A program made the translations under genes and the position numbers. From Exiguobacterium marinum DSM 16307 (GTDB taxonomy: Bacteria; Bacillota; Bacilli; Exiguobacteriales; Exiguobacteriaceae): a stretch of DNA of 64,000 bases. The notes under the pieces are model-generated. The model did not search any database. It was not told where the DNA came from and saw only the letters and a program-made list of their open reading frames with translations. Positions 47,097 to 64,000 of the stretch are shown piece after piece (within the stretch, counting starts at the first letter, position 1; every line of letters begins with the position of its first letter). The stretch is taken from the NCBI RefSeq assembly GCF_000620845.1, contig NZ_KK211189.1, forward strand, positions 883,662 to 947,661. Direction: 5' to 3'.

Positions 47097-47108
47097 GGAG
47101 AGATAGAG

Positions 47109-47567: not shown

Positions 47568-47570
47568 TGT

Positions 47571-47597
47571 ATAGGACGCTCATGACGAGCGTCCTAT
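47571..47597 (+). terminator. Strong intercistronic hairpin
   Basis: ATAGGACGCTC pairs perfectly with GAGCGTCCTAT around ATGAC. No T run follows, so it may attenuate or stabilise the message between the EIIA gene and the isomerase gene rather than terminate fully. Confidence 0.55.
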
Positions 47598-47636
47598 TGG
47601 TATGCAATTAAATAAAAAATCAAAATAGGAGGATTC

Positions 47637-48581: not shown

Positions 48582-48621
48582 TGACGAACCGAGACTATTT
48601 TGATGGGAAGGGGATTTTCAT

Positions 48622-49506
48622 ATGTTTGGAGCGATTGAATTAGGAGGAACGAAAATCGTCTGCGGCGTCGGCACGGAAACAGGAGACATTATACGCCACG
48701 TGTTCATCCCGACGACAGATCCGAAAGAGACGATGACGAGCGTGTTCGAATTTTTTGAAGGAGAGACAATCGAGGCACTCGGCGTCGGAACGTTCGGTCC
48801 GGTCGACTTGAACCGAGATAGTGAAACGTATGGGCACATTACGACGACACCAAAAGTAAAGTGGGCAAACTATCCGCTCTATGAAGTATTGAAGGCACAC
48901 TTTCAAGTTCCAATCGTACTCGATACCGATGTGAACGGGGCAGCGTTCGGGGAGATGACGTTTGGCGGGGCGACGGACGTCTCGAGTTGTCTCTATATGA
49001 CGGTCGGGACCGGAATCGGAGCGGGCGCCGTCATTGATGGGGAGCTCGTCCACGGGATGGGGCATCCGGAGATGGGACATATGATTGTCCGTCGTCATCC
49101 CGAAGACATGTCGAACGGCGTCTGTCCGTATCACGGAGACTGCCTCGAAGGTTTGGCATCAGGTCCCGCCATCGAGGCGAGACATGGCAAGAAGGCACAC
49201 TTGCTCGATCCGACCGACCCTGCGTGGGACATTGAGGCTGATTATTTGGCGCAGGCGCTCGTCAACATCGCCCTCATTCTCGCACCGGAGCGGATGATTC
49301 TCGGCGGTGGTGTCATGAAGCAGTCACACCTGTTCCCGAAAGTACGTGAAGCGTTTCGACAGAAGATGAACGGCTATATCCAAAATCCGTATGTGAATGA
49401 GTTGGAGACATATATCGTGCCACCGACACTCGGTGATTTCGCCGGATTAAAAGGAGCACTCGCCCTCGCCATCAAGAAAGGGGATGTCGTCCATGCCGGG
49501 CGTTGA
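48622..49506 (+). CDS. ROK-family fructokinase/mannokinase
   Basis: 294 residues. N-terminal ATP motif AIELGGTKIVCGVG, catalytic Asp in DTDVNGAAFGE, TVGTGIGAGAVIDGE, and the ROK zinc site HPEMGHMIVRRHPED with CPYHGDCLEGLASGPA. This zinc pattern is that of ScrK/GmuE fructokinases, which can also phosphorylate mannose. Next to manA it likely primes unphosphorylated hexoses. The end overlaps the esterase gene by 14 bp. Confidence 0.9.
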   Translation: MFGAIELGGTKIVCGVGTETGDIIRHVFIPTTDPKETMTSVFEFFEGETIEALGVGTFGPVDLNRDSETYGHITTTPKVKWANYPLYEVLKAHFQVPIVLDTDVNGAAFGEMTFGGATDVSSCLYMTVGTGIGAGAVIDGELVHGMGHPEMGHMIVRRHPEDMSNGVCPYHGDCLEGLASGPAIEARHGKKAHLLDPTDPAWDIEADYLAQALVNIALILAPERMILGGGVMKQSHLFPKVREAFRQKMNGYIQNPYVNELETYIVPPTLGDFAGLKGALALAIKKGDVVHAGR

Positions 49507-50443
49507 TGTGTCGGTCCGTGAGTTAGAGGCTTACCGATCAAACGTCACGATGCCGGACGACTTTGATCGATTCTGGGAGCGAGAACTTGAGACGTTACGG
49601 GACATTCCGATGCAAATCGAACGGAACCCAATCCCCGCTTACGTCCGAAACGTCGAGATGGAAGACATCCGTTACTTGTCGCATGGGGCAATCGTACACA
49701 AAGCGACGTTCATCAAACCGAAAACGATCGACCGCTCGCTTCCAGTCGTCATCCTCTATCACGGTTACAACTGGAATACCCACGAACCTCATATCGCCAT
49801 GAAGTATGTCGTACAAGGGATGTCGGTGCTCCTCGCCGAGACACGTGACCAAGGAATGGACCCGGAGCAGTCTTTGCTCATGCCTTTGGGCGGTGCCGCC
49901 GGATGGATGACGCGAGGGATTTTCAAGAAAGAGACGTATTATTACACACGGGTCATACTGGACGCAGTCCGTGCGCTCGATGTCGCCCTCATGCTGTCAG
50001 GTGCGAAGATGGCAATCGTTGAAGGTGGGAGCCAGGGCGGTGGCATCGCCCTCGGAGTCAGCGCATTGCATCCGAAAGTGAAGGCCGCATTGGTTGATAT
50101 CCCATTCCTCTGTGACATTCCAAGAGGGATCGAGTTGGCGACGGACGGGCCATATTTAGAAATCTCGCATCACTTCAAAGTACACGATCCTCTCCACGAG
50201 TCAGAAGAGGCATTGTACGATACGCTTCGTTATGTCGACGGGGTCAATTTTGCGAGACGCATCACTTGTCCTGTCATGGTCGGGATCGGTCTCTTAGATG
50301 AGGTGTGCCCTCCGTCGACAGGGTATGCGTTATTCCGTGAACTTTCCGGTGAGAAGGCGTTCCGTGTCTATCCGGAATATGGACACGGCCTCTCGAGCCG
50401 CCATGAAGAAGAAAAATTGAAATTCATCGCCCCGTTACTGTGA
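49493..50443 (+). CDS. Acetyl-xylan-esterase/cephalosporin-C-deacetylase family hydrolase
   Basis: 316 residues from the second ATG, with GAAAGGGG about eight nt upstream and within the kinase gene's 3' end. Alpha/beta hydrolase of the AXE1 group: oxyanion region ILYHGYNWNTH, nucleophile Ser in VEGGSQGGGIALG, acid loop GIGLLDEVCPPSTGYALF and catalytic His in YPEYGHGL. No signal peptide, so it acts in the cytoplasm, probably removing acetyl groups from imported sugars or oligosaccharides. Last gene before a terminator. Confidence 0.88.
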   Translation: MPGVDVSVRELEAYRSNVTMPDDFDRFWERELETLRDIPMQIERNPIPAYVRNVEMEDIRYLSHGAIVHKATFIKPKTIDRSLPVVILYHGYNWNTHEPHIAMKYVVQGMSVLLAETRDQGMDPEQSLLMPLGGAAGWMTRGIFKKETYYYTRVILDAVRALDVALMLSGAKMAIVEGGSQGGGIALGVSALHPKVKAALVDIPFLCDIPRGIELATDGPYLEISHHFKVHDPLHESEEALYDTLRYVDGVNFARRITCPVMVGIGLLDEVCPPSTGYALFRELSGEKAFRVYPEYGHGLSSRHEEEKLKFIAPLL

Positions 50444-50569: not shown

Positions 50570-50584
50570 TGAAAATTATTTTCA
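50570..50584 (+). promoter_or_regulatory. Shared operator 1: 7-1-7 palindrome before the GHL10 gene
   Basis: TGAAAATTATTTTCA is a perfect inverted repeat. The 13-bp core GAAAATTATTTTC recurs exactly at 53047-53059. Centre is about 58 bp upstream of the -10. It differs from the Fur consensus at only two symmetric positions, so Fur cannot be excluded, but the sugar context favours the RpiR half of the fusion regulator. Confidence 0.6.
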
Positions 50585-50659: not shown

Positions 50660-50682
50660 TTTTAGAAGAGGGAGTGAATGGG

Positions 50683-53007
50683 ATGAACAAACGTAACGTA
50701 GTCGGTACGGCACTTAGCCTCACATTGTTGGGAAGTTTATTACCGATGCAAGGAGCGGCAGCTGAAGAGGTGATGAAAGTCATCGATGCCTCGGGTGACG
50801 AGATGCGTGTCGGGGGCATCAACAAACTCGCGAACCAGCAGCAACTCATCATCTTCAACGATCAGTTTAGCTACTATACGGAGACGAACCCGGCGAGTAC
50901 GGAAGTCGTGCTAGAAAAAGTCGGGATCAATACGTACACGGTAGCGGAGAAACGAGGCGGGAACAGTCCGATTCCAGAGAATGGTCTCGTCCTGTCGACG
51001 GGGAAAGACACGACGGAAGCGGTCACTTCGTTCTTACGTCAGCTCGAAATCGGGGAGCGCGTCATGTTCGAGGAGCCGGTCGTCAAACAAGAAGAACGCA
51101 CGGCGAACGCGGTCGACCCGACGCGATCTTCGAACCCGGACGGGGCACCGTTCGATGGATTCCGTGGCCCGGACCAGTTGATCGTCTATACGCCTGCATT
51201 TGGGGAGTCGACGAAGACGAACGTATATGGCTATGAGATCACGGTCGAGGATGGCTATGTGACGAAGCTTGGTGGCGGGAATTCAAGCATCCCAGATAAC
51301 GGATTCGTCGTCAGCGGTCACGGTGTCAGCTCGGCGTTCCTCTCAGGCAACAGTATCATCGGGGCGAAAGTCGACGTGACGGACGGGGTCGTCACGATCA
51401 TGCAAGATGTGGACAGCTATGCGTTCCAAAGTGAGAAGGCAATCGAGAAGGCCGAACAGTCAATCTCAAAAGCGCGAGCTGAATGGATTGATGTCCCGCT
51501 CGACTTAGCAGACGAGGCGCTTCGTTCCGCTCGGACATATTTAGATCAGGCGAACGCAGAGTCAGATCCGGTCATCGCTTTAGACGCGGTAAGGCAAGCG
51601 ACACAACTTGCGTATGACGCCTATTATTACTCCATCGACTCAGGTGTCGCCGAACAGCGGGCCGTCTGGCATCGTCCGAAAGAATCGACGTTAACAGGCG
51701 TCGAGACCGTGCTCGACCGGATGGAAAAGGCCGGATTCAATGCGGTCTATCTCGAGACGACGTTCTGGGGATACCCGATCTATCCGAGTGCGGTCCAGGA
51801 ACAGTATGGACTTCCCGCCCAGCACCCGAACTTCAAAAACGGCGACTTCGGCGAGCACGGCACGGACATTCTCGCCGCCTATATCGCGAAAGCGAAAGAG
51901 CGTGGCATGACGGTTCACGCGTGGACGGACGGATTCATGGTCGGGGAAGCGAGCTTAGGTGTCCCGTCTCAGTTCAAACAGTATCCGGAATGGGCGGCCG
52001 TACAACGGACGAATACGACCGGACAACCGGCGCCGGACACGTCGAGCCGCTATTACTGGCTAGATATGATGCAGCCTGAAGTACAGGACTACATGCTTGC
52101 GCTCTATGAAGAGATGGAGTCGACTTATGACATCAAGGGATTGAATATCGATTACATGCGACTCCCGCATCATGGTTTTGACAAAGCGTATGGATTTAGT
52201 GAACCGACACGAGCCCTATACAAGCAAGTGAGCTTCATCGACCCGATTGATTTGAAGAAGGATACGCCGGAATGGGAGGCGTTCCAAGCATGGATCCGCG
52301 AACGGGAGAATGAATTCGTCGCCAAGCTACACGACATCTCGAAACAGAATGACGCGAAGTTCATGTTGACCGCAACGCCAGAACCAGGAGCGGAAGAAGT
52401 GTATATCAGTGACTGGAAAGAAGACATCGATGCCGTTATCCCACAAGCGTACGGACATGACTTCAATAGCATTCAAAAAACGGTCCAGGCGAGTAAGAAG
52501 CTGATGCCGGAAGGGACGATGTACTTCACGGGGATCTACTCGTTCTATCACCACTTGAACGAAGGAGCGGTGGTGGACGACGTCCTGTCGGCGAAGTTTG
52601 GCACATCGGGTGTGAATATGTTCGCATTCGGTCAAGCGAGCGCCCCATCCGTCGATGCGCTAGGAAAAGGTCCTTGGCGTGAGACGGCCGTCAACCCAGG
52701 GGAAGAGCCGCTCCTCGCCATCGAAGCGTTGTTGAAAGACACGCGCCGCGAGATGAACAGCCTGTATATGCCACAAGGGGCGATGGATAAAAAAGCGGGT
52801 CGCGCTCTCGCTAAAGAAATCCAACGTCTTGAGAAGGCAGCGAGAAAACAGTCGCTCAACCTAGAGGACGTACAACGAATCGAGCAGTCGTTAGATGTCA
52901 TGAAAACAAATGACCAACTCGAGCCGGTGTTATATGACCGTTTACAGTCACGAACGGCTGACATGAAACAGTGGCTACAATACGCCATCGAACGTCAAGG
53001 ACTCTAA
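50683..53007 (+). CDS. Secreted family-10-like glycosyl hydrolase (GHL10/DUF187 type)
   Basis: 774 residues; ATG chosen by AGAGGGAG. Signal peptide with cleavage expected after PMQGAAA near 27. Residues about 40-250 contain two similar units ending GGNSPIPENGLVLSTG and GGNSSIPDNGFVVSGHG. Helical linker about 250-325. The GHL10 TIM-barrel (about 325-660) shows RAVWHRPKE, VLDRMEKAGFNAVYLET, KAKERGMTVHAWTDGF, IKGLNIDYMRL, DAVIPQAYGHDF and MYFTGIYSFY. C-terminal helical tail. Relatives cleave or bind cell-surface or environmental polysaccharides; substrate unknown. No lipobox or anchor, so released. It starts the downstream glycan-utilisation locus. Confidence 0.88.
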   Translation: MNKRNVVGTALSLTLLGSLLPMQGAAAEEVMKVIDASGDEMRVGGINKLANQQQLIIFNDQFSYYTETNPASTEVVLEKVGINTYTVAEKRGGNSPIPENGLVLSTGKDTTEAVTSFLRQLEIGERVMFEEPVVKQEERTANAVDPTRSSNPDGAPFDGFRGPDQLIVYTPAFGESTKTNVYGYEITVEDGYVTKLGGGNSSIPDNGFVVSGHGVSSAFLSGNSIIGAKVDVTDGVVTIMQDVDSYAFQSEKAIEKAEQSISKARAEWIDVPLDLADEALRSARTYLDQANAESDPVIALDAVRQATQLAYDAYYYSIDSGVAEQRAVWHRPKESTLTGVETVLDRMEKAGFNAVYLETTFWGYPIYPSAVQEQYGLPAQHPNFKNGDFGEHGTDILAAYIAKAKERGMTVHAWTDGFMVGEASLGVPSQFKQYPEWAAVQRTNTTGQPAPDTSSRYYWLDMMQPEVQDYMLALYEEMESTYDIKGLNIDYMRLPHHGFDKAYGFSEPTRALYKQVSFIDPIDLKKDTPEWEAFQAWIRERENEFVAKLHDISKQNDAKFMLTATPEPGAEEVYISDWKEDIDAVIPQAYGHDFNSIQKTVQASKKLMPEGTMYFTGIYSFYHHLNEGAVVDDVLSAKFGTSGVNMFAFGQASAPSVDALGKGPWRETAVNPGEEPLLAIEALLKDTRREMNSLYMPQGAMDKKAGRALAKEIQRLEKAARKQSLNLEDVQRIEQSLDVMKTNDQLEPVLYDRLQSRTADMKQWLQYAIERQGL

Positions 53008-53042: not shown

Positions 53043-53046
53043 TTTA

Positions 53047-53059
53047 GAAAATTATTTTC
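53047..53059 (+). promoter_or_regulatory. Shared operator 2: palindrome before the ABC operon
   Basis: GAAAATTATTTTC, identical to the core of the site at 50571-50583. Its centre is about 45 bp upstream of the -10, just ahead of the -35, a position suited to an activator. Confidence 0.6.
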
Positions 53060-53074
53060 ATTTTAATTTTAGTA

Positions 53075-53124
53075 TTGCAAATAGATTTCTAAGGCGGTAT
53101 GATGAATTTGTGAAAACGCTTTCT
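53075..53124 (+). promoter_or_regulatory. Promoter and cre box of the ABC-GH38-ROK/RpiR operon
   Basis: TTGCAA (53075-53080), 17-nt spacer, TATGAT (53098-53103). TGAAAACGCTTTCT (53111-53124) is a cre match lying on the first transcribed bases, so CcpA repression is expected. Confidence 0.8.
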
Positions 53125-53150: not shown

Positions 53151-54473
53151 ATGAAAAAACGTACGAAACAACTCGCGGCGAGCGCATCGATCGCTGCCTT
53201 GTCAGTCGGCTTGATGGCTTGTAGCAATGAAGAATCTGATAGTGGCTCTGCATCGAGTGACGGCGAACTGTCAGGGAAGGTGACGATGTGGACGGCCTCG
53301 CTCGCGGGTGAACCGTTTGACTCTTATTTCGATGAGATTGAAAAAGAATTTGAAGAGATGCACCCAGATGTGGATGTCGTCATCGAAGACGTGCCTCAAA
53401 ATGAGATGGAGCAAAAAGTACTGACATCGTTGACGGGTAGTGACGTCCCAGACGTCGTCAACTTGAACCCACACTATATGTCGAACATCGCGGCACAGGG
53501 TGGATTGCTCGAACTTGACGACATGATGTCAGAAGAAGCGAAAACAGCTTACGTGGATGGTCCATACAAGTCTGGCATGTTCGAAGACAAATTGTACGCA
53601 CTTCCATGGTATTTGACGACGACCGTCTCTTGGTACAACGGTGACCACTTCGAACAGGCGGGCATCAAAGAAGTCCCGACTTCGACAGAAGGCATTTATG
53701 AAGCGTCGAAAATGTTGACGGACAAGACGGGTAAACCGGCATTCTATCCTGTCATCAATGACGGGAATGCCATCATGGAGAAAATGGTCTCAATCGCGGG
53801 TGAACCGATCGTCAAAGACGGAAAAGCAACGTTCGCCGACAACGAAGACATCATCAATTATTTCGAGACGATGCAAAAGATGTATGACGAAGGGTTGATC
53901 CCGCAAGAAGCAGCAGAAGGATCGATTAAGACAGGACAAGAACTCTATATGGCAGGTAACACATCATTACTCGAAGGTGGCGTCACATTCCTCGGACCGG
54001 TCGAGAGCGGCGCACCGGACATCTATGAAGTCTCAAAAGCAGGACAACCGCTTGAAGCATCAGACGCACCGGTCAACGTTGCGGTCATGAACTTCGCCGT
54101 ACCGGCGAAGACAAAGAATAAAGAGGCAGCGGTCGCATTCGCCGAGTTTGTCACGAATGCCGACAATCAGCTCGAATTCGCGAAGACGGCAGGAACGGTC
54201 CTCCCATCGACGAAAGCGTCACTCGAAGATGACTACTTCACGAATCCAGGTGACTCGCCGAAAGCGCTCGGGATGATGGAAGCTTCGAAATCACTCGAAC
54301 GTGCCGAGGTTCTCGTCCCGCCGACAGAGAACAGCGCGGAACTACGTGAGGCGACGAAAAACATCTTCGTTCAAAACTTACAAGGGAAAATGTCAGGTAA
54401 AGAAGCAGTAGAAGCACTTGCGAAAGCTTGGGATGACGCGTTCGAGAAATCTGGAGAGAGCGTGACGTTCTAA
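53151..54473 (+). CDS. Sugar ABC transporter substrate-binding lipoprotein (family 1)
   Basis: 440 residues. Signal peptide with lipobox LMAC (Cys24) and a Ser/Glu/Asp-rich linker. Typical MalE/UgpB-like features: VTMWTASLAGEPFDSYFDEIEKEFEEMHPDVDVVIEDVP, DVPDVVNLNPHYMSNIAAQGGLLELDDMM, LPWYLTTTVSWYN. It captures an oligosaccharide, probably one released by the secreted GHL10 protein, and passes it to the permeases downstream. GGGGAGGA precedes the ATG. Confidence 0.94.
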   Translation: MKKRTKQLAASASIAALSVGLMACSNEESDSGSASSDGELSGKVTMWTASLAGEPFDSYFDEIEKEFEEMHPDVDVVIEDVPQNEMEQKVLTSLTGSDVPDVVNLNPHYMSNIAAQGGLLELDDMMSEEAKTAYVDGPYKSGMFEDKLYALPWYLTTTVSWYNGDHFEQAGIKEVPTSTEGIYEASKMLTDKTGKPAFYPVINDGNAIMEKMVSIAGEPIVKDGKATFADNEDIINYFETMQKMYDEGLIPQEAAEGSIKTGQELYMAGNTSLLEGGVTFLGPVESGAPDIYEVSKAGQPLEASDAPVNVAVMNFAVPAKTKNKEAAVAFAEFVTNADNQLEFAKTAGTVLPSTKASLEDDYFTNPGDSPKALGMMEASKSLERAEVLVPPTENSAELREATKNIFVQNLQGKMSGKEAVEALAKAWDDAFEKSGESVTF

Positions 54474-54480
54474 ACGTTGA

Positions 54481-54526
54481 GAGCTGAATCAAAAGGAGAC
54501 CCCTCTTTTGATTCAGCTCGTTTTAT
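54481..54526 (+). terminator. Long hairpin between binding protein and permease genes
   Basis: A perfect 15-bp stem, GAGCTGAATCAAAAG with CTTTTGATTCAGCTC, nine-base loop, then GTTTTATT. Probably a partial terminator or mRNA stabiliser that keeps the binding protein in excess over the permeases. Confidence 0.8.
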
Positions 54527-54543
54527 TGGAAGGAGACCTGAAA

Positions 54544-55479
54544 ATGAATAAAGAGAATATAGCACTCCCTGTATCGACCACGAAAACGAAGGTCGTCAGA
54601 CGGAAGAAGAAAAACCTCCTCACCCCTTGGCTGTTCCTACTCCCATCGATTCTCGTGCTCGGCACGTTCCTCGTCATCCCAATCGTCGAGGCGTTTCATT
54701 GGAGTTTGTTGGACTATAAAATCATTGCGGGAACTGGAGAGTTCGTCGGACTCGCCAACTTCAAAGAGATTTTTACAGATACGTCGTTTTGGCTCGCGTT
54801 ATGGAATACGATTTTATTTTTGATTATCGTCCTTCCATTGAATATCTTTTTGCCAATGATTTTAGCAGTCTTGGTCAATCAGACTATCAAAGGTGTATCG
54901 ACGTTCCGTATCTTGTATTACTTGCCGGTCGTCACACCGATGGTCGTTGCCGCGCTCATGTGGAAGATGCTTTACTCACAGAGTGGCCCGGTCTCGTCAA
55001 TATTCGTATCGCTCGGTCTGTTTGACAATCCGACAAACTTACTTGTCCAAAGCTCGACCGCTCTCGTCGCAGTATCCGCGATCACAGTGTGGAAAGGCCT
55101 AGGCTACTACATGATCATTTATTTGGCTGGTCTTCAATCGATTTCAAAAGATGTCTATGAATCTGCTGAGATCGACGGAGCGAACGCCTTTCAAAAATTT
55201 TGGCGCATCACTGTACCGATGTTGACACCTTCTGTCACACTCGTGTCTGTCATGACAATCATCGCTGGAATGAAAGTGTTTGAAGAAATCGCGTTAACGA
55301 CGGGCGGTGGTCCGGCTGGAGCGACTACGACGCTCGTCATGTACATCTATAAAAAATTCATGTCACTGGACGTCAGTATCGCATCAGCCGCTGGTGTCGT
55401 CCTGCTCCTTCTCGCAATCGGTGCTTCCTTGCTTCAAATGAAGTTGACGAGTTCGCGAGAAGAAGATTTACGGGCTTAA
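54544..55479 (+). CDS. Sugar ABC transporter permease (MalF/UgpA-like)
   Basis: 311 residues from the ATG with GAAGGAGACC upstream; an upstream in-frame ATG lies within the hairpin. Basic N-terminal tail (VVRRKKKN), then six membrane segments. The EAA loop that docks the ATPase is YESAEIDGANAFQKFWRITVPML. Partner of the next permease. No ATPase gene is in the locus. Confidence 0.93.
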   Translation: MNKENIALPVSTTKTKVVRRKKKNLLTPWLFLLPSILVLGTFLVIPIVEAFHWSLLDYKIIAGTGEFVGLANFKEIFTDTSFWLALWNTILFLIIVLPLNIFLPMILAVLVNQTIKGVSTFRILYYLPVVTPMVVAALMWKMLYSQSGPVSSIFVSLGLFDNPTNLLVQSSTALVAVSAITVWKGLGYYMIIYLAGLQSISKDVYESAEIDGANAFQKFWRITVPMLTPSVTLVSVMTIIAGMKVFEEIALTTGGGPAGATTTLVMYIYKKFMSLDVSIASAAGVVLLLLAIGASLLQMKLTSSREEDLRA

Positions 55480-55492
55480 AGGAGAAGTGAAG

Positions 55493-56317
55493 ATGAAACG
55501 TAAACAAACGACACAAAAAATCATGTTATACCTATTGATGATTTTCATTTCGGTTATCACGGTCGGTCCATTCCTCATCACGTTATTTATGGCACTCAAA
55601 TCGCCAGGGGAAAGTATTTACGGAACAGTTTATCCGACAGACCCGACACTCGCAAACTTCACCGATTCGTTCTCGAAAGCGAACTTCGGGCTCTACTTCC
55701 TCAATACGTTTATCGTAACGGCGATTGCGATCCCGTTGAACTTGCTCTTCTGTAGTCTGGCGGCATATCCGCTCGCCCGAATGGACTTCCGAGGAAGAGG
55801 CGTCGTTCTCTCACTCATTATCGCGACGATGATGGTTCCCTTCCAACTGTACATGGCACCACTCTTCCAACTCGCAGGCGAGCTTGGTCTACGTAACTCT
55901 TACATCGGACTCGTTGTGATGCAGGTGGCGACGGCGTTTGGGATCTACTTAATGCGACAAGCGTATTTACGCATCCCGAAAGAGCTTGAAGAGTCGGCTT
56001 ACCTAGACGGGGCGAACCGTTTCCAAGTTTGGTATCGCGTCGCGTTACCACTCGTAAAACCGACACTCGTCACATTGGCGATTTTCACGTTTATGGGGAC
56101 GTGGGGCGACTACTTGTGGCCACTCCTCAATTCAACGGAGAGTAGCATGTACACGCTCTCGATCGGATTGGCGCAACTGTCGCAAAACTTCGATGGCTCG
56201 AACTTGAAATTAATTAGTGCGGCATCGATCTTGACGACGATTCCGACATTGATTTTATTCATGGCGCTCCAAAAATACTTTATCTCTGGTGCGACAGACG
56301 GCGCCGTGAAAGGTTAA
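55493..56317 (+). CDS. Sugar ABC transporter permease (MalG/UgpE-like)
   Basis: 274 residues, six membrane segments, EAA loop EESAYLDGANRFQVWYRVALPLVKPTL. AAAGGAGA is eight nt before the ATG; a GTG six bases upstream is too close to it. Together with the previous permease it forms a carbohydrate-uptake (CUT1) channel, which in Bacillales is commonly energised by a shared MsmX-type ATPase encoded elsewhere. Confidence 0.93.
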   Translation: MKRKQTTQKIMLYLLMIFISVITVGPFLITLFMALKSPGESIYGTVYPTDPTLANFTDSFSKANFGLYFLNTFIVTAIAIPLNLLFCSLAAYPLARMDFRGRGVVLSLIIATMMVPFQLYMAPLFQLAGELGLRNSYIGLVVMQVATAFGIYLMRQAYLRIPKELEESAYLDGANRFQVWYRVALPLVKPTLVTLAIFTFMGTWGDYLWPLLNSTESSMYTLSIGLAQLSQNFDGSNLKLISAASILTTIPTLILFMALQKYFISGATDGAVKG

Positions 56318-56338: not shown

Positions 56339-57682
56339 ATGATTCATTACGCAGGACACGAAATCAAGGTAGTACGAGAAGTCGATTGTGTCGTCGTTGG
56401 CGGCGGGACGTCTGGCGTGACGGCGGCCTATACTGCAGCAAGTGAGGGAGTCGACACACTTCTCATTGAAAAGACGATTGCACTCGGTGGGACGCAGACG
56501 AACGCGCTCGTCTCTCCGATGATGCCGACACACGTTCAACCTCGGGGCGTCAACCGCTACATCTTAGATCGATTGGAAGAGCGCGGCGTTAAAACGGATG
56601 ACGGGACGACGAATTGTCGGTGGTTCAATGTCGAGACGCTCACTTCGTTGCTAGATGAGTTGTTGGAACAGGTCGGATGTCAGGTGTTATACGATGCCGT
56701 CGTCATCGATGTGTTGAAAGACGATGACGCGATCACCCATCTGATCGTCCAGACATGTGCCGGCCTCGTCGCGATTCAGACGCAGACGGTCATCGATGCT
56801 TCAGCGGACGCCGTCGTCGCCCGTGTGTCGGACATCCCGACGTCTTCTGGTGACGAAAACGGACATAATCAGCAGATGACGTTCCGTTTTGAGATGGGCG
56901 GTGTCGACCTCGCTCGTGTCCGAGACTATGTGCTTGGACTCGGCGAAACGTTCTGTCAGATCGAGGACCCGAATTTCTTCGAGATTGTCATGGTCCCCGG
57001 GAAAGGTCATGTGCTCGAAGGGTTATTCCGGGACGGATTGGCAACAGGTGAACTCACGGCTGACGACCTGAAGTATTTTCAAGGATTCACACAACCGGGC
57101 AAACCGGGTGTCTTCTCCTTTAACTGTCCCCACATCCCTGGGTTGACGGACACGACCGACCCGTTCGCCCGTTCTGAAGCGGTGCGTATCGGGCGACAGA
57201 TGATGCAGCGTCTCAGCCGATTCTTGGTCCGTCATTTACCAGGATTTGAGTCCGCTTTCTTATTAAAAGAAGCAACACAGCTCGGCATCCGTGAGTCATA
57301 TCGAATTCAAGGGAAGTATGTGTTGTCCGAAACGGACTATGCGAATCGGGCCCGCTTCCATGACGCGATTGCCAAAGGAGATTGGTACGTCGATGTCCAT
57401 CGCGTCAAAGGAGACGAGGCGTTACCGAAGAAATACACGGCGGGTGAATATTATGAGATCCCGTATCGTGCCCTTATCGTGAATGAAGTGACGAATGTCA
57501 TTTTCGCTGGTCGACATATCTCGAGCACGTTCCTCATGCAAGCCTCGCTTCGGATTCAGCCGACGCTACGAGATGTCGGGGAAGCGACGGGACTGGCCGT
57601 CGCACTCGCGTTAAAAACGAAAACGGCACTGAATGAACTTGACGGCAGGTTGATTCGGGAACGAATGGAGGTTCTTCAATGA
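56339..57682 (+). CDS. FAD-dependent oxidoreductase (FAD_oxidored / PF12831 type)
   Basis: 447 residues. N-terminal dinucleotide fold DCVVVGGGTSGVTAAYTAA (16-34) with GGGTSG as the GxGxxG motif and LLIEKTIALGGTQT after it. Internal TVIDASADAVVARVSDIP and the C-terminal FAD contact NVIFAGRHISSTFLMQASLRIQPTLRDVGEATGLA are as in the PF12831 group. No signal peptide. The role in sugar metabolism is unproven; oxidising a sugar hydroxyl to open a glycoside or process a modified residue is the inference. Stop overlaps the GH38 start by 4 bp, so the two are made together. Confidence 0.88.
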   Translation: MIHYAGHEIKVVREVDCVVVGGGTSGVTAAYTAASEGVDTLLIEKTIALGGTQTNALVSPMMPTHVQPRGVNRYILDRLEERGVKTDDGTTNCRWFNVETLTSLLDELLEQVGCQVLYDAVVIDVLKDDDAITHLIVQTCAGLVAIQTQTVIDASADAVVARVSDIPTSSGDENGHNQQMTFRFEMGGVDLARVRDYVLGLGETFCQIEDPNFFEIVMVPGKGHVLEGLFRDGLATGELTADDLKYFQGFTQPGKPGVFSFNCPHIPGLTDTTDPFARSEAVRIGRQMMQRLSRFLVRHLPGFESAFLLKEATQLGIRESYRIQGKYVLSETDYANRARFHDAIAKGDWYVDVHRVKGDEALPKKYTAGEYYEIPYRALIVNEVTNVIFAGRHISSTFLMQASLRIQPTLRDVGEATGLAVALALKTKTALNELDGRLIRERMEVLQ

Positions 57683-60171
57683 AACAAGTGCACGTCTTGA
57701 ATCATACGCATTGGGACCGGGAATGGTATGAATCGTTCGAATCGTTCCGCTTCAAACTGACGGAAGGGCTACGTTATGTCGTCGATCGTCTAGAAGCTGG
57801 GCAATTCGATAACTTTTTTTTAGATGGACAGACGATCGTGCTCGACGATTATCGGGAAGTGGTCAGTGTGGACGAATATGAACAGCTCGTCGAGTGGATT
57901 CGTGCAGGCAAAATCGAGGTCGGACCGTGGTACTTACTCGCCGATGAGTTTTTAGTGGCGGGTGAAGCGCTCATTCAAAACTTGAAGATTGGGACGAAGC
58001 TGGCACGCGAACTGGGATCGAAACATGATATCGGCTATTTGCCGGATACGTTCGGACATATCGGACAGATGCCACAAATTCTAGAGCAATTCGGAATCGG
58101 TCACGCCATCCTATGGCGTGGTGCCGTATCGGATTCATTCGAGAATACGTGGGTCGCGCCGAACGGGTCGCACGTCAAGACGTTCGTCCTTCCTTTGTTC
58201 GAAGGCTATTATCAGACATTCTTAAAGCATGAGGCATTTCAAAAAGAGATGGATGACTATTTGACACGTAACGAACCGTTCGTGAAAAGCGGTCATTACT
58301 TGGTCATGAATGGGGCCGACCACACATTCACAGCACCAGACATCAAAGACAGGCTTAATGCGGTCGATTTGCCGGTCCGTCAATCGCTCATGTCTGACTA
58401 TACGGATGCGGTGGCGACACATCGTCCGACTGCCACGATTCACGGTGAACAGCGGGACCCATCGAAAATCTTCATCCTACCAGGTGTTCTCTCGACACGG
58501 ACGTATCTGAAGCGTGACAATCAACTCGTTGAGGATGAAGCGCTCAATACACTGGGATTTTTGAACGCCTTTCTCGGGACGGAGACACGAAACGATTCAT
58601 TCCGAGAGTACGTATGGAAACTGATTTTACAAAACCAACCACACGACAGCATTTGTGGATGTAGCATCGATGCCGTCCATGACGAGATGGAGACACGTTC
58701 AGCACGTGCACTCGCTGCCATGAGACAGTTCGAACAGACGCAGCTCGACAAGCATTATCCGGCACCGTATTTTGGTGAAGGCTATAACAATCAGCTCGTG
58801 GTGATCTCAACCGTGCCGGTCAAACGAATGCTCCCGGTAGAAACAACGATTCGTATCCCGAAACGTCTCGACCTCGGACATATTAGCCTCAGCATGAACG
58901 GGGGACCGATTGAGATCGACGTTTTGCGTCGGGAAGAGAAGGAAGTGTTTCTACGACACATTTTGGCAGAGCCGCATTACGACGAGTATGTAGAATATGA
59001 CGTCGTCTTTTCGATCCCAGTCGAAGGGGCAGGCGCTTATGTATGTGAGATTGAGCGAGTCGAAGAAGCAGTCACACCACTTGCTCAAACAGAAGACGTC
59101 ATCGAGAATGCGTTCTATAAAATCGAGACGAACGACCAAGGCTTGACGATTACGGATGTAGTGAGCGGGACACGTTATCCAGGACAACACGTCGTTTACT
59201 CGAGTCTCGATGCAGGCGATACGTATAACTACTCACCGCCACTTGAGGACTGTTTGTCAAAAGCAACACTTCTTCATGCCACGGTTGAACGTGGTCAATC
59301 CCATCAAACGATGTGTCTCGAGTTTACGTTGACGATCCCGGCTTCCTTGGATGATTCACGTCAAAAAGGAAGCGAACAGATGGTGACGATGCCAATCATG
59401 ACTACGGTCACACTGTATGAACATGACCCGCTCATCCGTTTCAAGACGACAGTGGACAACAAGGCGCAAGACCATAAGCTCCGTGTCGCCTTTGATGTCG
59501 GAACGTGTGAAGTCACGACGGCGGATACGGCGTTTGATTGGAATGAACGGGAGACGATGCGGGACAAGCGATTTGATGCTGAGAAAAATGAAGAGTGCGT
59601 CATGGCGCAAGCGCCGACGTATTCGTTCGTTCAGGCCAATGCGCACACCCTCGTTCATCGCGGTCTACAAGAATACGTTGTGAGCACATACGACGACCGA
59701 GACGTCGTGGAGCTGACGATGCTCCGAGCGGTCGGCTGGTTGTCACGACGGGACTTGCGGACGCGAGGGAACGGGGCTGGACCCGGATTTGAAGTGCCGG
59801 GTGCACAATGTCTGCGAACGGACACATTCGAATACGGACTTGTGTTGAATCGGGAGAACGAGTCGGCGACACACATCACGAGCTTCCGTCGACGTCCGAT
59901 CGTGCATCAAACACGCGCAGCGACACCGAGGCATTGGTTCACCATGACAGGTGGCGTATTCTCGAGTGTGACAGGAATCGAACCGAATGTCAGCGAAATT
60001 CGTCTATACAATCCGACGAGGGAACGTGTTCCTATTACCATGACGTTCGAACAACAGGTAACATTAGAGAGAGTAACGTTAACAGGAGACGTCATCGAAC
60101 AGGTGGATGCGGCGTTTACGGTCCGACCGAAAGACATCGTGACGATCCGGGTGACGAGCGAAGAGAAATAG
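57679..60171 (+). CDS. GH38 alpha-mannosidase-family hydrolase, copy 2
   Basis: 830 residues. Zinc ligands His11 and Asp13 in NHTHWDREW, nucleophile Asp123 in GYLPDTFGHIGQMPQIL, and the late histidine in QNQPHDSICGCSIDAVHDEM. Cytoplasmic (no signal peptide). It diverges from copy 1 mainly in the C-terminal half and has FGH where copy 1 has FGQ, so the substrate probably differs. The operon has ABC import rather than PTS, suggesting an unphosphorylated alpha-mannoside or N-acetylmannosaminide-like substrate. Coupled to the FAD oxidoreductase gene by overlap. Confidence 0.92.
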   Translation: MKQVHVLNHTHWDREWYESFESFRFKLTEGLRYVVDRLEAGQFDNFFLDGQTIVLDDYREVVSVDEYEQLVEWIRAGKIEVGPWYLLADEFLVAGEALIQNLKIGTKLARELGSKHDIGYLPDTFGHIGQMPQILEQFGIGHAILWRGAVSDSFENTWVAPNGSHVKTFVLPLFEGYYQTFLKHEAFQKEMDDYLTRNEPFVKSGHYLVMNGADHTFTAPDIKDRLNAVDLPVRQSLMSDYTDAVATHRPTATIHGEQRDPSKIFILPGVLSTRTYLKRDNQLVEDEALNTLGFLNAFLGTETRNDSFREYVWKLILQNQPHDSICGCSIDAVHDEMETRSARALAAMRQFEQTQLDKHYPAPYFGEGYNNQLVVISTVPVKRMLPVETTIRIPKRLDLGHISLSMNGGPIEIDVLRREEKEVFLRHILAEPHYDEYVEYDVVFSIPVEGAGAYVCEIERVEEAVTPLAQTEDVIENAFYKIETNDQGLTITDVVSGTRYPGQHVVYSSLDAGDTYNYSPPLEDCLSKATLLHATVERGQSHQTMCLEFTLTIPASLDDSRQKGSEQMVTMPIMTTVTLYEHDPLIRFKTTVDNKAQDHKLRVAFDVGTCEVTTADTAFDWNERETMRDKRFDAEKNEECVMAQAPTYSFVQANAHTLVHRGLQEYVVSTYDDRDVVELTMLRAVGWLSRRDLRTRGNGAGPGFEVPGAQCLRTDTFEYGLVLNRENESATHITSFRRRPIVHQTRAATPRHWFTMTGGVFSSVTGIEPNVSEIRLYNPTRERVPITMTFEQQVTLERVTLTGDVIEQVDAAFTVRPKDIVTIRVTSEEK

Positions 60172-60195
60172 ACTTTAACGAAGAAGGTGACAAAG

Positions 60196-61854
60196 ATGAG
60201 AAAATTCGTAGCGCTCGACATTGGCGGGTCGTTTATCAAGTACGGTGTGTTGACGGAAGATGCGATCTTTATCGAAAAACATGAGAGCATGACCGAAGCC
60301 AACCAGGGTGGGGCTCACATCTTAGAGAAGGTGACGGGATTCATCCGTGATTTGCAGACGCGTCACGACGTACAAGGCATTTGCATCTCAACGGCAGGGC
60401 AAGTCGACTCGAAAGAAGGGGTCGTCGTCTATGCCTCGAAGTTGATTCCTGCCTACACGGGCACCCGGTTAAAAGAAACGTTGGAGGCAACGTTCAGTCT
60501 GCCAGTCGAGGTCGAAAACGATGTGAACTGTGCCGGACTGGCCGAGTCATGGGTCGGGAGCGGCAAAGGGGCGAAAAGCTTATTCTGCCTGACAATCGGA
60601 ACGGGAATCGGAGGTAGTTACATTCTCGACAACAAACTCCATACGGGGCATAGCTTCAGTGGGGGCGAGATCGGTTATATCCCGATTGAAGGATATGCGT
60701 TCGAAGAATTGGCGTCTACCCGTGTCCTCATCGAACGTGTCGAGGCGAGAACGGAACAGACGGGATTGAACGGGAAAGACGTGTTCGAGATGGCGCATGC
60801 GGGCAATCCGATTGCTATCGAAGAAATCGATCGTCTCGTCTATTACTTGTCAAAAGGGATTGCTACGGTGACGTATATGATGAACCCTGAAAAAATCATC
60901 ATCGGTGGCGGAATCACGGCGCAAAAAGACTACTTGTATCCTCGCATCATGAAGCAACTCGCTGCCGACATCATTCCTGCCATCTTGGAGAAGACGACGA
61001 TTGAGATTGCCCGGAACTTGAACAACGCCGGGATGATTGGAGCGCTTCGTCACTTCTTGCTCCAGGAATCGATGCGACCGCTCCGGAGCATCACGACGAT
61101 TATCGAGTCGAACCATCATCGCTTCACGAAACGCGAGCAACTCGTCGCTGACTTTATCATCCAGAACCTTGAAGCTGTACCGAATAAGACGATCACTGAA
61201 ATGTCTCGCCAAATCAACGTATCGGAAGCGACAATCACCCGCTTTTGCCAAAAGCTCGAGTTCGGGTCATATAATAAGTTGCGCTTACTTGCCAAAGAAG
61301 CGACTGTCAGCAATCGCTACTATGGCCCTTCGAATATCGATGGACTCGATGAGATTAACGAAGCGTACTTCATGATGATGAAGAAATACGATTCATTGTA
61401 TGACCAAAAAGCGATGAACCGACTGAAAGAAGTGCTTGAATCGACGAACCAAGTCGTCTTATACGCGACGGATGAGTGGTCGCCGCTCTTACCCGCCATC
61501 AAGACGAAGCTGTTGGAGTTTGGCGTGATGACGGATCTGTTCTCAGGAGCGCAAGCGATTCAATTGTCCAAACGGGCGATTCGCCCGGAGACACTCGTCA
61601 TCGGTCTAAGTCGCGATGGCTATAGTGAAGAAGTCATTGACGGTTTGACGAATGCGAAACGAATCGGTGCCGTCACCGTCGGACTATCGACACAAAGTGA
61701 TTCGCCACTCTTTTCCGTATCAGATGTCCGTCTGACTGTCGCTTCAACGGAAAACGCGCATGTCACGTCGATTCGTGAAGTTGCCCTGTTTTATCTATTA
61801 GATGTCATCACGCACACGGTTCGGACGGAAGAGCCAAGCAGTGAGACGGTTTGA
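60196..61854 (+). CDS. Fusion protein: ROK sugar kinase + RpiR (HTH_6-SIS) regulator
   Basis: 552 residues in one uninterrupted frame, start set by AGAAGG eight nt upstream. Residues 1-290 are a ROK kinase: phosphate loop ALDIGGSFIKYG (6-17), catalytic Asp109 in VENDVNCAG, TIGTGIGGSYI (123-133), EIGYIPIEG (158-166) and PEKIIIGGGI (231-240). The usual ROK zinc cysteines are missing and the family histidine after ExG is Tyr161. Residues 296-372 are the HTH_6 DNA-binding domain (HRFTKREQLVADFIIQNLE, NVSEATITRFCQKLEFGSYNKLR). Residues 405-540 are a SIS domain with ETLVIGLSRDGYSEEVIDGL. With NanE two genes downstream, ManNAc is the likely kinase substrate. Standalone kinase and RpiR proteins are the norm; this arrangement is unusual. 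Confidence 0.9.
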   Translation: MRKFVALDIGGSFIKYGVLTEDAIFIEKHESMTEANQGGAHILEKVTGFIRDLQTRHDVQGICISTAGQVDSKEGVVVYASKLIPAYTGTRLKETLEATFSLPVEVENDVNCAGLAESWVGSGKGAKSLFCLTIGTGIGGSYILDNKLHTGHSFSGGEIGYIPIEGYAFEELASTRVLIERVEARTEQTGLNGKDVFEMAHAGNPIAIEEIDRLVYYLSKGIATVTYMMNPEKIIIGGGITAQKDYLYPRIMKQLAADIIPAILEKTTIEIARNLNNAGMIGALRHFLLQESMRPLRSITTIIESNHHRFTKREQLVADFIIQNLEAVPNKTITEMSRQINVSEATITRFCQKLEFGSYNKLRLLAKEATVSNRYYGPSNIDGLDEINEAYFMMMKKYDSLYDQKAMNRLKEVLESTNQVVLYATDEWSPLLPAIKTKLLEFGVMTDLFSGAQAIQLSKRAIRPETLVIGLSRDGYSEEVIDGLTNAKRIGAVTVGLSTQSDSPLFSVSDVRLTVASTENAHVTSIREVALFYLLDVITHTVRTEEPSSETV

Positions 61855-61863
61855 GGTGTGACG

Positions 61864-63372
61864 ATGAAAATCGTATATGTACCGATCGATGAACGACCAT
61901 GTAATGTCGATGTGGTGCAGCGGATTGTCGGGGTGACCGACGAGGTGACGCTGCTCACGCCACCCGATCATTTATATGGATACAAAAAAGAAGCCGCCGA
62001 CAAAATAGGGATTCGAGAGTGGGTGCGCAGTGTCAAAGACTGCGACGCTTTCGTCCTCAGTGCGGACATGCTTTGCTATGGCGGGCTCTTGCCGTCACGT
62101 CTTCATCATATGACAGAGACGGACCGTGACGCTTTCATCGAGTGGATGCGGACGCTCCAAAGTGAGACGGATGCACCGCTTTATGTCGCGACGATGATCA
62201 TGCGCACACCGAAGTATAGCTCGAATGATGAAGAACCTGACTATTATGGTCAATTCGGAGCCGAAATCTATCGACGTTCCTGGTTACAGGACAGAGAGGG
62301 ACGTGACGGTTTGACCGAGATGGAACAGCAGGAACTCGTGACATTGAACGAATTGGTTCCAACAGAACATGTGGAGGATTATGAGGCGAGACGTGCCTTC
62401 AACCGATCTATCAACGAAGCGATGATTCAACTCGTTGAGGAAGGTGTCATTGAGCGGTTGTTCATCCCTCAAGACGATAGTGCCGAATATGGCTACACAT
62501 CGATTGACCAGACAAACGTATTAAGGCAAATACAAGAACGACGTGTGTTGACGAAGGTTCATATGTATCCTGGAGCGGATGAAGTAGGTGCAACCATGGT
62601 CGCCCGAGCCTTTTTGGACCATCAAGGAACACGACCACGGGTGCATCCGATGTGGAGTAGTGTCCTCGGTCCGACGTTAATCCCGATGTATGAGGACCGA
62701 CCGTTCATCGAAAGCATGTATGCCCATCTGGACGCGATTGGACTACACCTCGTCGAGACGATAGAAGACGCGGATCTCATGCTCGCCTACAATGTCCCCG
62801 GACGTGTGATGCAGGAATCGTGGGATCAAGACGAGCGTGATGTGACGTACACGAGTTTTCGTCACATGCGTCAATTCGTCACCAAGATCGAATCTGCGCT
62901 TACGCAAGGGAAACGAGTCATCGTCGCCGACAGTGCCTATGCCAACGGTGGGGATCAAGAGTTGATCATGTGGCTCGATGAGTTGAATATTCTCGAACAG
63001 TTGGACTCTTACAAAGGTTGGAATACGAACGGGAATACGCTCGGGACGACGCTCGCGCAAGGGGTGTTTGCCCAAGTCGGGAAGAGAGAGCGGATTCGTG
63101 AGAACGTCCTGTATCACGTCCTTGACGATTTCGTCTATCAAGCAAAAGTTCGGATGAAGATGACGAATACCGTGTTACCGCAGTATGGGGCGAGCTACTT
63201 CGATTTAAACGAACAGGCAACAGTGATTTCGCAAGAGCGTGACCGTGTGATGACGGAAGTGGCGCGACATGTAATCCGTCATTCTTTCCAAGAAGCATGG
63301 ACAGTCAACACATCGGCACCTTGGAACCGCATGTTTGAATGCCGATTAGAGTTTGGAGGAACAACCCAATGA
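61864..63372 (+). CDS. DUF4127 family protein
   Basis: 502 residues, soluble, no signal peptide. Opening MKIVYVPIDERPCNVDVV, then DAFVLSADMLCYGGLLPSRLHH, YVATMIMRTPKYSS, FIPQDDSAEYG, PGADEVGATMVARAFLDHQG and VIVADSAYANGGDQELI match DUF4127 as I recall it. Family function is not established. Conserved Asp/His/Arg-rich segments suggest an enzyme acting on sugars or peptidoglycan-like compounds. Coupled to NanE by a 4-bp overlap and 9 nt after the fusion kinase-regulator, so its role must lie in the same pathway. RBS GAGGTG favours the ATG at 61864 over the GTG at 61858. Confidence 0.85.
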   Translation: MKIVYVPIDERPCNVDVVQRIVGVTDEVTLLTPPDHLYGYKKEAADKIGIREWVRSVKDCDAFVLSADMLCYGGLLPSRLHHMTETDRDAFIEWMRTLQSETDAPLYVATMIMRTPKYSSNDEEPDYYGQFGAEIYRRSWLQDREGRDGLTEMEQQELVTLNELVPTEHVEDYEARRAFNRSINEAMIQLVEEGVIERLFIPQDDSAEYGYTSIDQTNVLRQIQERRVLTKVHMYPGADEVGATMVARAFLDHQGTRPRVHPMWSSVLGPTLIPMYEDRPFIESMYAHLDAIGLHLVETIEDADLMLAYNVPGRVMQESWDQDERDVTYTSFRHMRQFVTKIESALTQGKRVIVADSAYANGGDQELIMWLDELNILEQLDSYKGWNTNGNTLGTTLAQGVFAQVGKRERIRENVLYHVLDDFVYQAKVRMKMTNTVLPQYGASYFDLNEQATVISQERDRVMTEVARHVIRHSFQEAWTVNTSAPWNRMFECRLEFGGTTQ

Positions 63373-64000
63373 TTGAACAATTAAGAAGTCAGTTGATCGT
63401 GTCCTGTCAGGCGCTCCCGGATGAACCGCTCCACGGTTCGGCTATCATGGCCCGCATGGCTGTCGCCGCAAAAGAGGGTGGGGCGAGTGGGATTCGTGCG
63501 AACGGCATCGAAGACATTCAAGCGATTCAATCTGTCGTCGATCTACCCATCATCGGCATCATCAAACGGGAATACGATGGTTCGGATGTTTACATCACAC
63601 CGACGCTGGAAGAAGTCGACGCGCTCGTATCGGCAGGTGTCGATTTGATTGCGCTCGATGCGACACATCGAGCGCGTCCGGACGGTTCGACGATTGCCAC
63701 GTTGTTCCCGCTATTAAAAGAGAAGTATCCGAATCAACGCTTCATGGCGGATTGTGCCACACTCGAAGATGCGGTCCGCGCTGAACGGCTAGGGTTCGAT
63801 GTCGTCGCACCGACGCTCTATGGTTATACAGCGGAGACGGTTGGTAAGAAAGTGTATGAAGGTGACTTTCAATTTTTAAGGGAAATGGTGCAGATTGTCT
63901 CGATTCCTGTCATTGCGGAAGGGAATGTGATTACACCGGAGCATGCACGTAGAGTTCTTGAAATCGGGGCGTATGCGGTCGTCGTCGGTGGCGCCATCAC
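63369..64000 (+). CDS. nanE: N-acetylmannosamine-6-phosphate 2-epimerase (partial, runs off window)
   Basis: The first 210 residues are present; about 15-20 are cut by the window end. TIM-barrel NanE landmarks: LIVSCQALPDEPLHG, AAKEGGASGIRANG, PIIGIIKREYDGSDVYITPT, LIALDATHRARPDG, FMADCATLEDAVRAERLGFD, PVIAEGNVITPEHARRVLEIGA and VVGGAIT. The catalytic Lys lies in IKREY. It converts ManNAc 6-phosphate to GlcNAc 6-phosphate. Start overlaps the DUF4127 stop (ATGA). No sialic acid lyase (NanA) or sialidase is seen in the window, so ManNAc may not come from sialic acid. Confidence 0.95.
   Translation, partial: MIEQLRSQLIVSCQALPDEPLHGSAIMARMAVAAKEGGASGIRANGIEDIQAIQSVVDLPIIGIIKREYDGSDVYITPTLEEVDALVSAGVDLIALDATHRARPDGSTIATLFPLLKEKYPNQRFMADCATLEDAVRAERLGFDVVAPTLYGYTAETVGKKVYEGDFQFLREMVQIVSIPVIAEGNVITPEHARRVLEIGAYAVVVGGAI

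Follow-up and report, generated by a model that had tools for sequence, protein, structure and literature searches.

A ROK-HTH_6-SIS fusion protein of Exiguobacterium marinum and its relatives: a plausible ManNAc kinase joined to an RpiR regulator with an eroded sugar-phosphate site

Sugar kinases and transcription regulators share one chain in described systems, with which we compare here a 552-residue protein of Exiguobacterium marinum DSM 16307 that joins a ROK kinase half to the two domains of an RpiR regulator, an HTH_6 helix-turn-helix (HTH) domain and a SIS domain. Its gene lies in a 64,000-nucleotide stretch of contig NZ_KK211189.1 (positions 883,662 to 947,661), called the window below. 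In the family NF010701/PRK14101 ('bifunctional transcriptional regulator/glucokinase'), which we take to be the Burkholderia-type Glk-HexR, a sugar kinase and an RpiR HTH-SIS module are likewise fused. The kinase of Glk-HexR is N-terminal (RpiR matches fall at positions 351-595 of the 638 in the NF010701 model) and belongs to PF02685 rather than ROK; at 44.3 of the 920 required, the window protein falls outside this family. The HTH-ROK repressors (NagC, Mlc, XylR, Lmo0178) also combine ROK and HTH in one chain, but with the HTH before the ROK domain, whereas here it follows. Their ROK domain is no longer a kinase and senses sugar in its cleft; the title of the Lmo0178 structure entry reads 'bound to inducer'. 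The NagC and Mlc models place the window protein outside both families (85.5 of 650 and 77.7 of 530). A kinase-RpiR fusion as such thus has precedent in NF010701; the ROK-RpiR version is the new part, and we found no description of it in the open-access literature searched.

Related domains also occur as separate proteins. In sialic acid operons such as nanEAT-yhcH-nanKR of C. perfringens (available text of PMC4509764), a kinase gene of the same clade adjoins an RpiR gene; this split nanK-nanR pair yields two proteins and an intact SIS ligand site, whereas the fusion is one chain with an eroded site. The N half resembles FnNanK (5nck), in the available text of PMC5458393 a zinc-less ROK kinase for N-acetylmannosamine (ManNAc), which has no HTH-SIS module and whose ExGH His is a Tyr in the fusion. 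The C half has the HTH_6-SIS layout of SpNanR and VvNanR (4ivn). SpNanR is a dimer-tetramer and an activator according to the available text of PMC12713135, and its ligand-contact residues are lost in the fusion. The parts of the fusion gene are as follows.

60196..61854, + strand: ROK(NanK-clade)-HTH_6-SIS fusion, 552 residues, one frame from ATG 60196 to the stop at 61854
60208..61047, + strand: ROK kinase domain, residues 5-284, with catalytic Asp109 at 60520-60522
61018..61110, + strand: predicted continuous helix between kinase and HTH, residues 275-305
61093..61290, + strand: HTH_6 DNA-binding domain, residues 300-365
61498..61782, + strand: SIS domain, residues 435-529 (Pfam range), with an apparently eroded sugar-phosphate site
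61477..61626, + strand: apparently eroded ligand positions, residues 428-477

A preliminary description of the window had proposed a single intact frame with these three domains, and the reading frame and Pfam bear this out: ROK (PF00480) scores 158.4 bits (curated cut-off 22.9), HTH_6 55.8 (28.3) and SIS 33.1 (25), the last two together placing the protein in the RpiR family. No frameshift or stop separates the domains. We rejected an assembly artefact, since 26 other loci (L037-L061, L098) keep the frame unbroken, which makes a sequencing frameshift very unlikely. An alternative GTG start at 60187, three codons 5′ of the ATG, falls by eye within a ribosome-site-like AGGTG stretch, and ATG 60196 is therefore favoured.

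The preliminary description had also proposed a search for the same architecture in sequence databases, and the fusion does occur beyond this window. A protein-guided scan of genome contigs gave 249 relatives, the best 80 of which were kept for comparison; 26 of these 80 are single-chain fusions and 54 are standalone kinases. A fusion unique to this genome is ruled out by these 26 other loci and by three Priestia megaterium plasmids that encode it, one of which was analysed in detail. Since the gene table labels the fusion on all three plasmids only 'ROK family protein', the regulatory half is easily missed. Identity to the window protein runs from 97% (Exiguobacterium qingdaonense) down to 44%; with E. 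chiriqhucha (93%), E. qingdaonense is the closest named relative among the best 80 of 249. Hosts include Exiguobacterium, Fictibacillus, several Bacillus-type genera, Jeotgalibacillus, Oceanobacillus, Virgibacillus, Halolactibacillus, Alkalibacterium and others, and the distribution is patchy, with full-length, stop-free copies in 3/19 Exiguobacterium and 4/398 Bacilli genomes. An RpiR gene lies directly downstream of 48 of the 54 standalone kinases, starting -74 to +165 bases from the end of the kinase open reading frame (ORF); we refer to the 54 as split loci. For L090 the sole RpiR is distant and divergent, and none was found for the remaining five.

The closest PDB entry to the C half is SpNanR, a binder of ManNAc 6-phosphate (ManNAc-6-P; 8tx9 and near-identical chains). 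According to the available text of PMC12713135, its phosphate contacts are Ser135, Ser179, the Leu180 backbone, Ser181 and Thr184, and its sugar contacts Arg148, Tyr229 and Asp160. In the window protein, W428 takes the place of Ser135, E441 of Arg148, Q453 of Asp160, D474 of Ser181 and S477 of Thr184, while Ser179 is kept as S472; with W, E, S, D and S at 135/148/179/181/184, the protein lacks the NanR contact set for ManNAc-6-P. Ser135 is found in 48/48 split RpiRs and 0/27 fusions (and in none of the 28 fusions examined), Arg148 in 48/48 against 2/27, Ser179 in 46/48 against 19/27, Ser181 in 45/48 against 16/27, and Thr184 in 28/48 against 2/27, with Asp at 184 in 12/27 fusions. Three or four of the four phosphate positions are Ser/Thr in all splits (48/48) and all other standalone RpiRs (23/23); among the fusions the number is three in 1/27, two in 20/27, one in 5/27 and zero in 1/27. 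An acidic residue enters this phosphate cradle in 0/48 splits, 0/23 other standalone RpiRs and 15/27 fusions. Over five core positions, ligand-site entropy equals the SIS average in fusions (1.67 vs 1.66; P 0.49) and lies far under it in splits (P 0.0014) and other RpiRs (P 0.0001). The Priestia fusion reads MKYSSA at 135/148/160/179/181/184, and a standalone RpiR adjoining nanE on the same plasmid stretch has the intact SRHSST. In the most divergent fusion, from Alkalibacterium (L061, 10001-11683), SIS reaches 14.7 of 25 bits, with ROK and HTH_6 strong. Judged from the aligned residues, all 28 fusions examined have an eroded SIS sugar-phosphate site. The preliminary description thus rightly saw SIS retained as a domain and missed the loss of its ligand residues.

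A one-residue alignment shift at 135 was considered and rejected: Ser/Thr occupies 136 in only 15/27 fusions (Glu in 7/27), so the shifted site is unconserved too. Nor is erosion supported as a trait of the pathway rather than of the fusion. The gene after the fusion encodes a DUF4127 protein, and in 20 DUF4127 loci of other Bacillota that lack the fusion, the nine standalone RpiRs keep the site, with SRHSST or SRHSSS at the six positions in 9/9 (L205 is truncated where its stretch ends). Standalone RpiRs nearest the fused half, 26 of which (L148-L173) were compared from 29 matches in 398 Bacilli genomes, have three or four Ser/Thr at the four positions and no acidic residue in 26/26; Ala stands at 135 in 2/26. 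Twelve of these 26 rows are already among the 23 other standalone RpiRs, where L118 and L151 represent one gene and L003 is nearly identical to L160.

The preliminary description had ManNAc-6-P from the fused kinase bind the SIS domain and control the operon as in NanR. That model fits the SpNanR match of the C half, the Gly182 position kept in 27/27 fusions beside Ser179 in 19/27, and the selection still acting on SIS, but with Ser135, Arg148 and Thr184 almost wholly gone from the fusions and an acid in the cradle of more than half of them, a pattern the split RpiRs do not share, and as far as the contacts in the available SpNanR text go, we consider it quite unlikely. A SIS domain re-tailored to another, perhaps unphosphorylated, ligand could remain the sensor and would account for fusion-specific residues (Tyr/Phe at 183 in 27/27, Lys at 143 in 26/27 and Tyr/Phe at 160 in 22/27, SpNanR numbering); we regard this as unlikely, the old pocket varying no less among fusions than the remainder of the domain, in contrast to what a single shared ligand would lead one to expect, and only 10/141 positions of the SIS region being conserved in at least 26/27 fusions, against 122/290 for ROK.

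By divergence rate, the kinase and HTH are the conserved parts of the chain. Mean pairwise identity within fusions is 0.73 for ROK, 0.71 for HTH and 0.43 for SIS; within splits it is 0.58, 0.50 and 0.46. The nonsynonymous rate (dN) of SIS exceeds that of ROK in 10/10 chosen fusion pairs vs 1/7 chosen split pairs, the pairs being hand-chosen, several sharing a locus, and some synonymous rates (dS) being saturated or not computable. Where computable, omega for SIS in fusions is 0.04-0.15, which indicates purifying selection. SIS would therefore be demoted rather than discarded, since it evolves fast and is still under purifying selection. The junction at residues 275-305 has a mean identity of 0.77, the best of the five segments compared, and no indel in 27/27 fusions, whereas identity in the HTH-SIS linker is 0.41. 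The AlphaFold model makes 275-305 one helix and gives a predicted local distance difference test score (pLDDT) below 50 at 372-381, within the HTH-SIS linker. With the junction conserved and indel-free while the linker to SIS diverges, the alignments suggest that kinase-HTH coupling is what selection protects.

The N half has FnNanK (5nck, Fusobacterium nucleatum) as its closest PDB entry by sequence (E 4e-60), and the predicted fold agrees, 5nck being the best of the re-aligned Foldseek hits (Z 38.3, root-mean-square deviation 2.1 Å, 291 aligned). Asp109, which the preliminary description reported as kept, is present, and D8, G10, G11, K15, E107, N108, D109, N111, GTGIGG, E158 and G160 are invariant in 27/27 fusions. 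The DxGxT nucleotide motif is kept (DIGGS in the window; T in 22/27 fusions, S in 5/27). ExGH is absent, ExGY standing instead with Tyr161 in 27/27 fusions, and the zinc motif CxCGxxGCx(E/D) is not present. Because both motifs are missing, we file the protein under ROK only, and 'NanK' is used here as a functional inference. Absence of the zinc cysteines had been described correctly, and for the atypical pocket deduced from it there is a precedent: the available text of PMC5458393 presents FnNanK as a zinc-less ROK ManNAc kinase with an otherwise intact active site; a Tyr at the ExGH His position is reported there for the Listeria enzyme LmNanK. The ManNAc-facing residues given for FnNanK, Gln67, Asn106, Asp107, Glu156 and Glu168, correspond to Q69, N108, D109, E158 and E170. 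In the careful tree, 13 fusion and 13 sialic-operon NanK rows form one clade (100/97) with FnNanK next; in the quick tree FnNanK instead grouped with long-branched outgroup rows. The N half is thus a plausible ManNAc kinase by its residues and predicted fold, as the preliminary description had proposed, with ManNAc specificity inferred.

Another substrate for the fused kinase, for instance a disaccharide, mannose or N-acetylglucosamine (GlcNAc), seems to us unlikely. In favour of one, the protein scores higher with the TIGR00744 glucokinase and BglK models than with those for ManNAc kinases, although no score reaches its cut-off; the island contains genes for GH38 and mannose-6-phosphate isomerase, and ExGY is shared with Listeria 4htl, listed as a beta-glucoside kinase or putative ManNAc kinase; against these stand the grouping with sialic-operon NanKs just described, a NanE gene alongside in 18/26 fusion loci, and the match to the substrate residues in the available FnNanK text.

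Candidate operators lie at both promoters of the operon.

50570..50584, no strand assigned: candidate operator TGAAAATTATTTTCA, upstream of the GHL10 gene, 0 mismatches to the consensus TGAAAATNATTTTCA
53046..53060, no strand assigned: candidate operator AGAAAATTATTTTCA, upstream of the ABC solute-binding gene, 1 mismatch to the consensus TGAAAATNATTTTCA
53076..53090, no strand assigned: a further, weak copy of the operator, tentatively assigned, with 4 mismatches and 30 bp 3′ of the 53046 site

The preliminary description had named palindromes at 50570 and 53047; both are real and conserved, though the second begins at 53046. In a blind search for gapped palindromes 5′ of solute-binding genes, GAAAAT-N-ATTTTC ranked first with 13/20 promoters, against at most 3 in five shuffles that preserve base composition only. 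With up to 2 mismatches, the 15-base consensus occurs in 22/25 promoters and in 49/2000 random stretches drawn from the same loci, coding DNA included; 7/7 GHL10 promoters tested have such a site, and the solute-binding-gene promoters of L058, L059 and L061 have sites with 3 or 4 mismatches only. Genome-wide, the exact core is found only at the operon's two promoters, once at each; the fusion-bearing Exiguobacterium genomes hold 2, 2 and 1 exact cores, and a reversed control pattern gave one hit in 3/19 genomes. Since the palindrome is conserved and exclusive to the operon in this genome, we infer that the fusion protein binds it, and the autoregulatory link drawn in the preliminary description appears likely.

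In promoters picked without regard to the palindrome, sites with up to 4 mismatches fall at -81 ± 1 in 21/25 and at -51 ± 1 in 18/25, 30 bp apart; L053, for which no promoter was predicted, is not counted, nor are L037 and the duplicate window locus, and the near-identical loci L040/L041 and L047/L048 inflate these counts. The window and E. chiriqhucha (L038) have sites at -58 and, weakly, at -28 of the predicted promoter. A spacing of three helical turns between two sites would suit a dimer of dimers, and a position upstream of the -35 box in most loci would suit an activator; the geometry in the window does not settle the sign. A TGAAAACGCTTTCT-like stretch at 53109-53124, presumably cre-like, overlaps the predicted transcription start, and similar stretches lie by eye 3′ of the -10 box in many fusion loci. 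A kinase with a constitutive or vestigial DNA-binding tail and no ligand sensing, CcpA alone controlling the operon, would fit the cre-like stretch 3′ of the window's -10 box, a motif recognised by eye, but with the HTH 71% identical across fusions and the palindromes at fixed promoter positions in most loci, we find this very improbable.

The surrounding operon comprises the following genes.

50680..53007, + strand: GHL10 glycoside-hydrolase-like gene, start near the Met before a signal-peptide-like segment
53151-54473, + strand: ABC solute-binding protein (SBP_bac_1)
54508-55479 and 55487-56317, + strand: two ABC permease genes, named after annotated Priestia counterparts
53151..56317, + strand: the whole ABC sugar importer
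56339..57682, + strand: FAD-dependent oxidoreductase (PF12831)
57679..60171, + strand: GH38 alpha-mannosidase-type hydrolase
61858..63372, + strand: DUF4127 gene, 3′ of the fusion
63339..64000, + strand: NanE, ManNAc-6-P 2-epimerase, second gene downstream of the fusion, running off the window

The mechanical ORF start of GHL10, GTG 50533, would make the operator palindrome part of the coding sequence; translation more likely begins at the Met near 50680. Profile matches place a NanE gene in the operon of the fusion. DUF4127 is found in 26/26 fusion loci, directly after the fusion or beyond an esterase gene. In the 26 fusion stretches, which vary in length, the ABC solute-binding protein and each permease occur in 25, the FAD oxidoreductase in 17, GH38 in 16, GHL10 in 14 and an acetyl xylan esterase-like gene in 13. 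NanA occurs in 45/54 split loci vs 1/26 fusion loci, the SSS transporter in 44/54 vs 0/26 and YhcH in 43/54 vs 0/26, each cluster having been named from one representative; with these genes in 1, 0 and 0 of 26, the fusion operon is unlike a sialic acid operon, and its ManNAc is probably derived from a glycan that the cell takes up. The 20 unfused DUF4127 loci have a separate ROK gene in 9, a separate RpiR gene in 9, NanE in 5 and NanA in 0.

DUF4127 is above cut-off in 62/398 Bacillota genomes. Its AlphaFold model has a pLDDT of 91, and comparison of this fold with the PDB gave no clear match (best VIA Z 10.0 over 134 residues; Foldseek TM ~0.2); the name was found in no paper of the open-access literature searched. 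An upstream block at 45684-50443 encodes phosphotransferase system (PTS) IIB-IIC and IIA, a mannose-6-phosphate isomerase, a ScrK-like ROK kinase (313 of 400 bits) and an AXE1-type esterase. Because isomerase, ScrK-like kinase and esterase genes also surround the Priestia plasmid fusion, block and operon together suggest a mannose plus ManNAc glycan island.

Fused ROK halves group in a single clade (support 97 in the quick tree, 96/97 in the careful tree), sister to the kinases of sialic acid operons, and a single origin is therefore the simplest reading of the trees. The fused RpiR halves are likewise one clade in two trees (100; 100/100), on a long stem and with no supported sister; split RpiRs fall in several groups, and no particular NanR could be identified as the source of the fused half. 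Near-duplicates were removed from the quick trees, leaving 21/27 fusions and 49/54 splits for ROK and 21/27 fusions and 37/48 splits for RpiR; the careful trees hold 12 or 13 fusions and 10 or 13 splits, L205 also being left out for RpiR. In Granulicatella (L073:9992-11707), the nanK and nanR ORFs, with mechanical starts, abut in-frame with zero intergenic bases, a layout that by its sequence is one step from a fusion. A second ROK fusion is encoded in the E. marinum genome outside the window (L224:770-2563): its 597-residue frame puts mannose-6-phosphate isomerase domains ahead of the ROK domain, and comparably long frames that match ROK are listed for several related genomes.

Based on these comparisons, we judge it slightly better than an even chance that the fusion is a bifunctional ManNAc kinase and DNA-binding regulator of its own glycan-uptake operon, with ROK as the sensor and SIS as a scaffold. 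A glycan would enter through the neighbouring ABC transporter and release ManNAc, which the fusion kinase would phosphorylate and NanE would convert from ManNAc-6-P to GlcNAc-6-P. Occupation of the ROK cleft by sugar or nucleotide, and not a product bound to SIS, would shift the HTH through the shared helix, much as sugar binding is thought to do in the HTH-ROK repressors. SIS would be mainly an oligomerisation scaffold that lets two HTH pairs hold operators 30 bp apart. It is not far-fetched that SIS should act only as a scaffold, because in the available text of PMC12713135 the HTH of SpNanR is joined to SIS by a flexible linker and ManNAc-6-P stabilises the tetramer, not DNA affinity. The evolutionary part of the proposal, a sensor swap in which the SIS site was lost after fusion to the enzyme that produces its ligand and the active kinase became the sensor, detecting its substrate through catalysis and moving the HTH via the shared helix, we hold tentatively, at a little under an even chance.

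Several observations weigh against this kinase-sensor reading. Purifying selection on SIS implies that some function is retained, and the domain could bind another ligand; in one fusion three of the four cradle Ser/Thr survive. The fused RpiR clade has a stem length of 1.42, so erosion could predate fusion. The predicted template modelling score (pTM) of the AlphaFold model is 0.57 and its mean pLDDT is 69 at residues 291-300, which makes domain orientation uncertain and leaves rigid ROK-HTH coupling unproven. At the promoters, a -81 site is missing from 4/25 (the window, L038, L051 and L059, the last two fitting neither pattern) and three further promoters have no -51 site; one exact operator core also occurs in 5/16 Exiguobacterium genomes without the fusion. 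In the kinase, E170 is replaced by Gln in 16/27 fusions, the ExGH His is Tyr, as the available text reports for the Listeria enzyme, and NCBIfam ManNAc-kinase models stay far under cut-off (80.3 of 283 and 73.1 of 450). Full-length NanE is present in only 18/26 fusion stretches, with a fragment in one more (tblastn). The split kinase of the C. difficile sialic operon is likewise under the ManNAc-kinase cut-off (90.8 of 283), and since the catalytic positions are invariant and the shortfall is shared with this enzyme, kinase activity is likely.

RpiR regulators are taken to sense phosphosugars in their SIS domain, and standalone members keep three or four of the four cradle Ser/Thr throughout the sets compared (48/48, 23/23, 26/26 and 9/9; sets partly overlap). 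The fusion family would be a clean test of this rule, and it ties DUF4127 to a likely ManNAc pathway. If the kinase is the sensor, the fusion would be a live-enzyme counterpart of the HTH-ROK repressors and would show that enzyme and regulator functions can be traded between domains.

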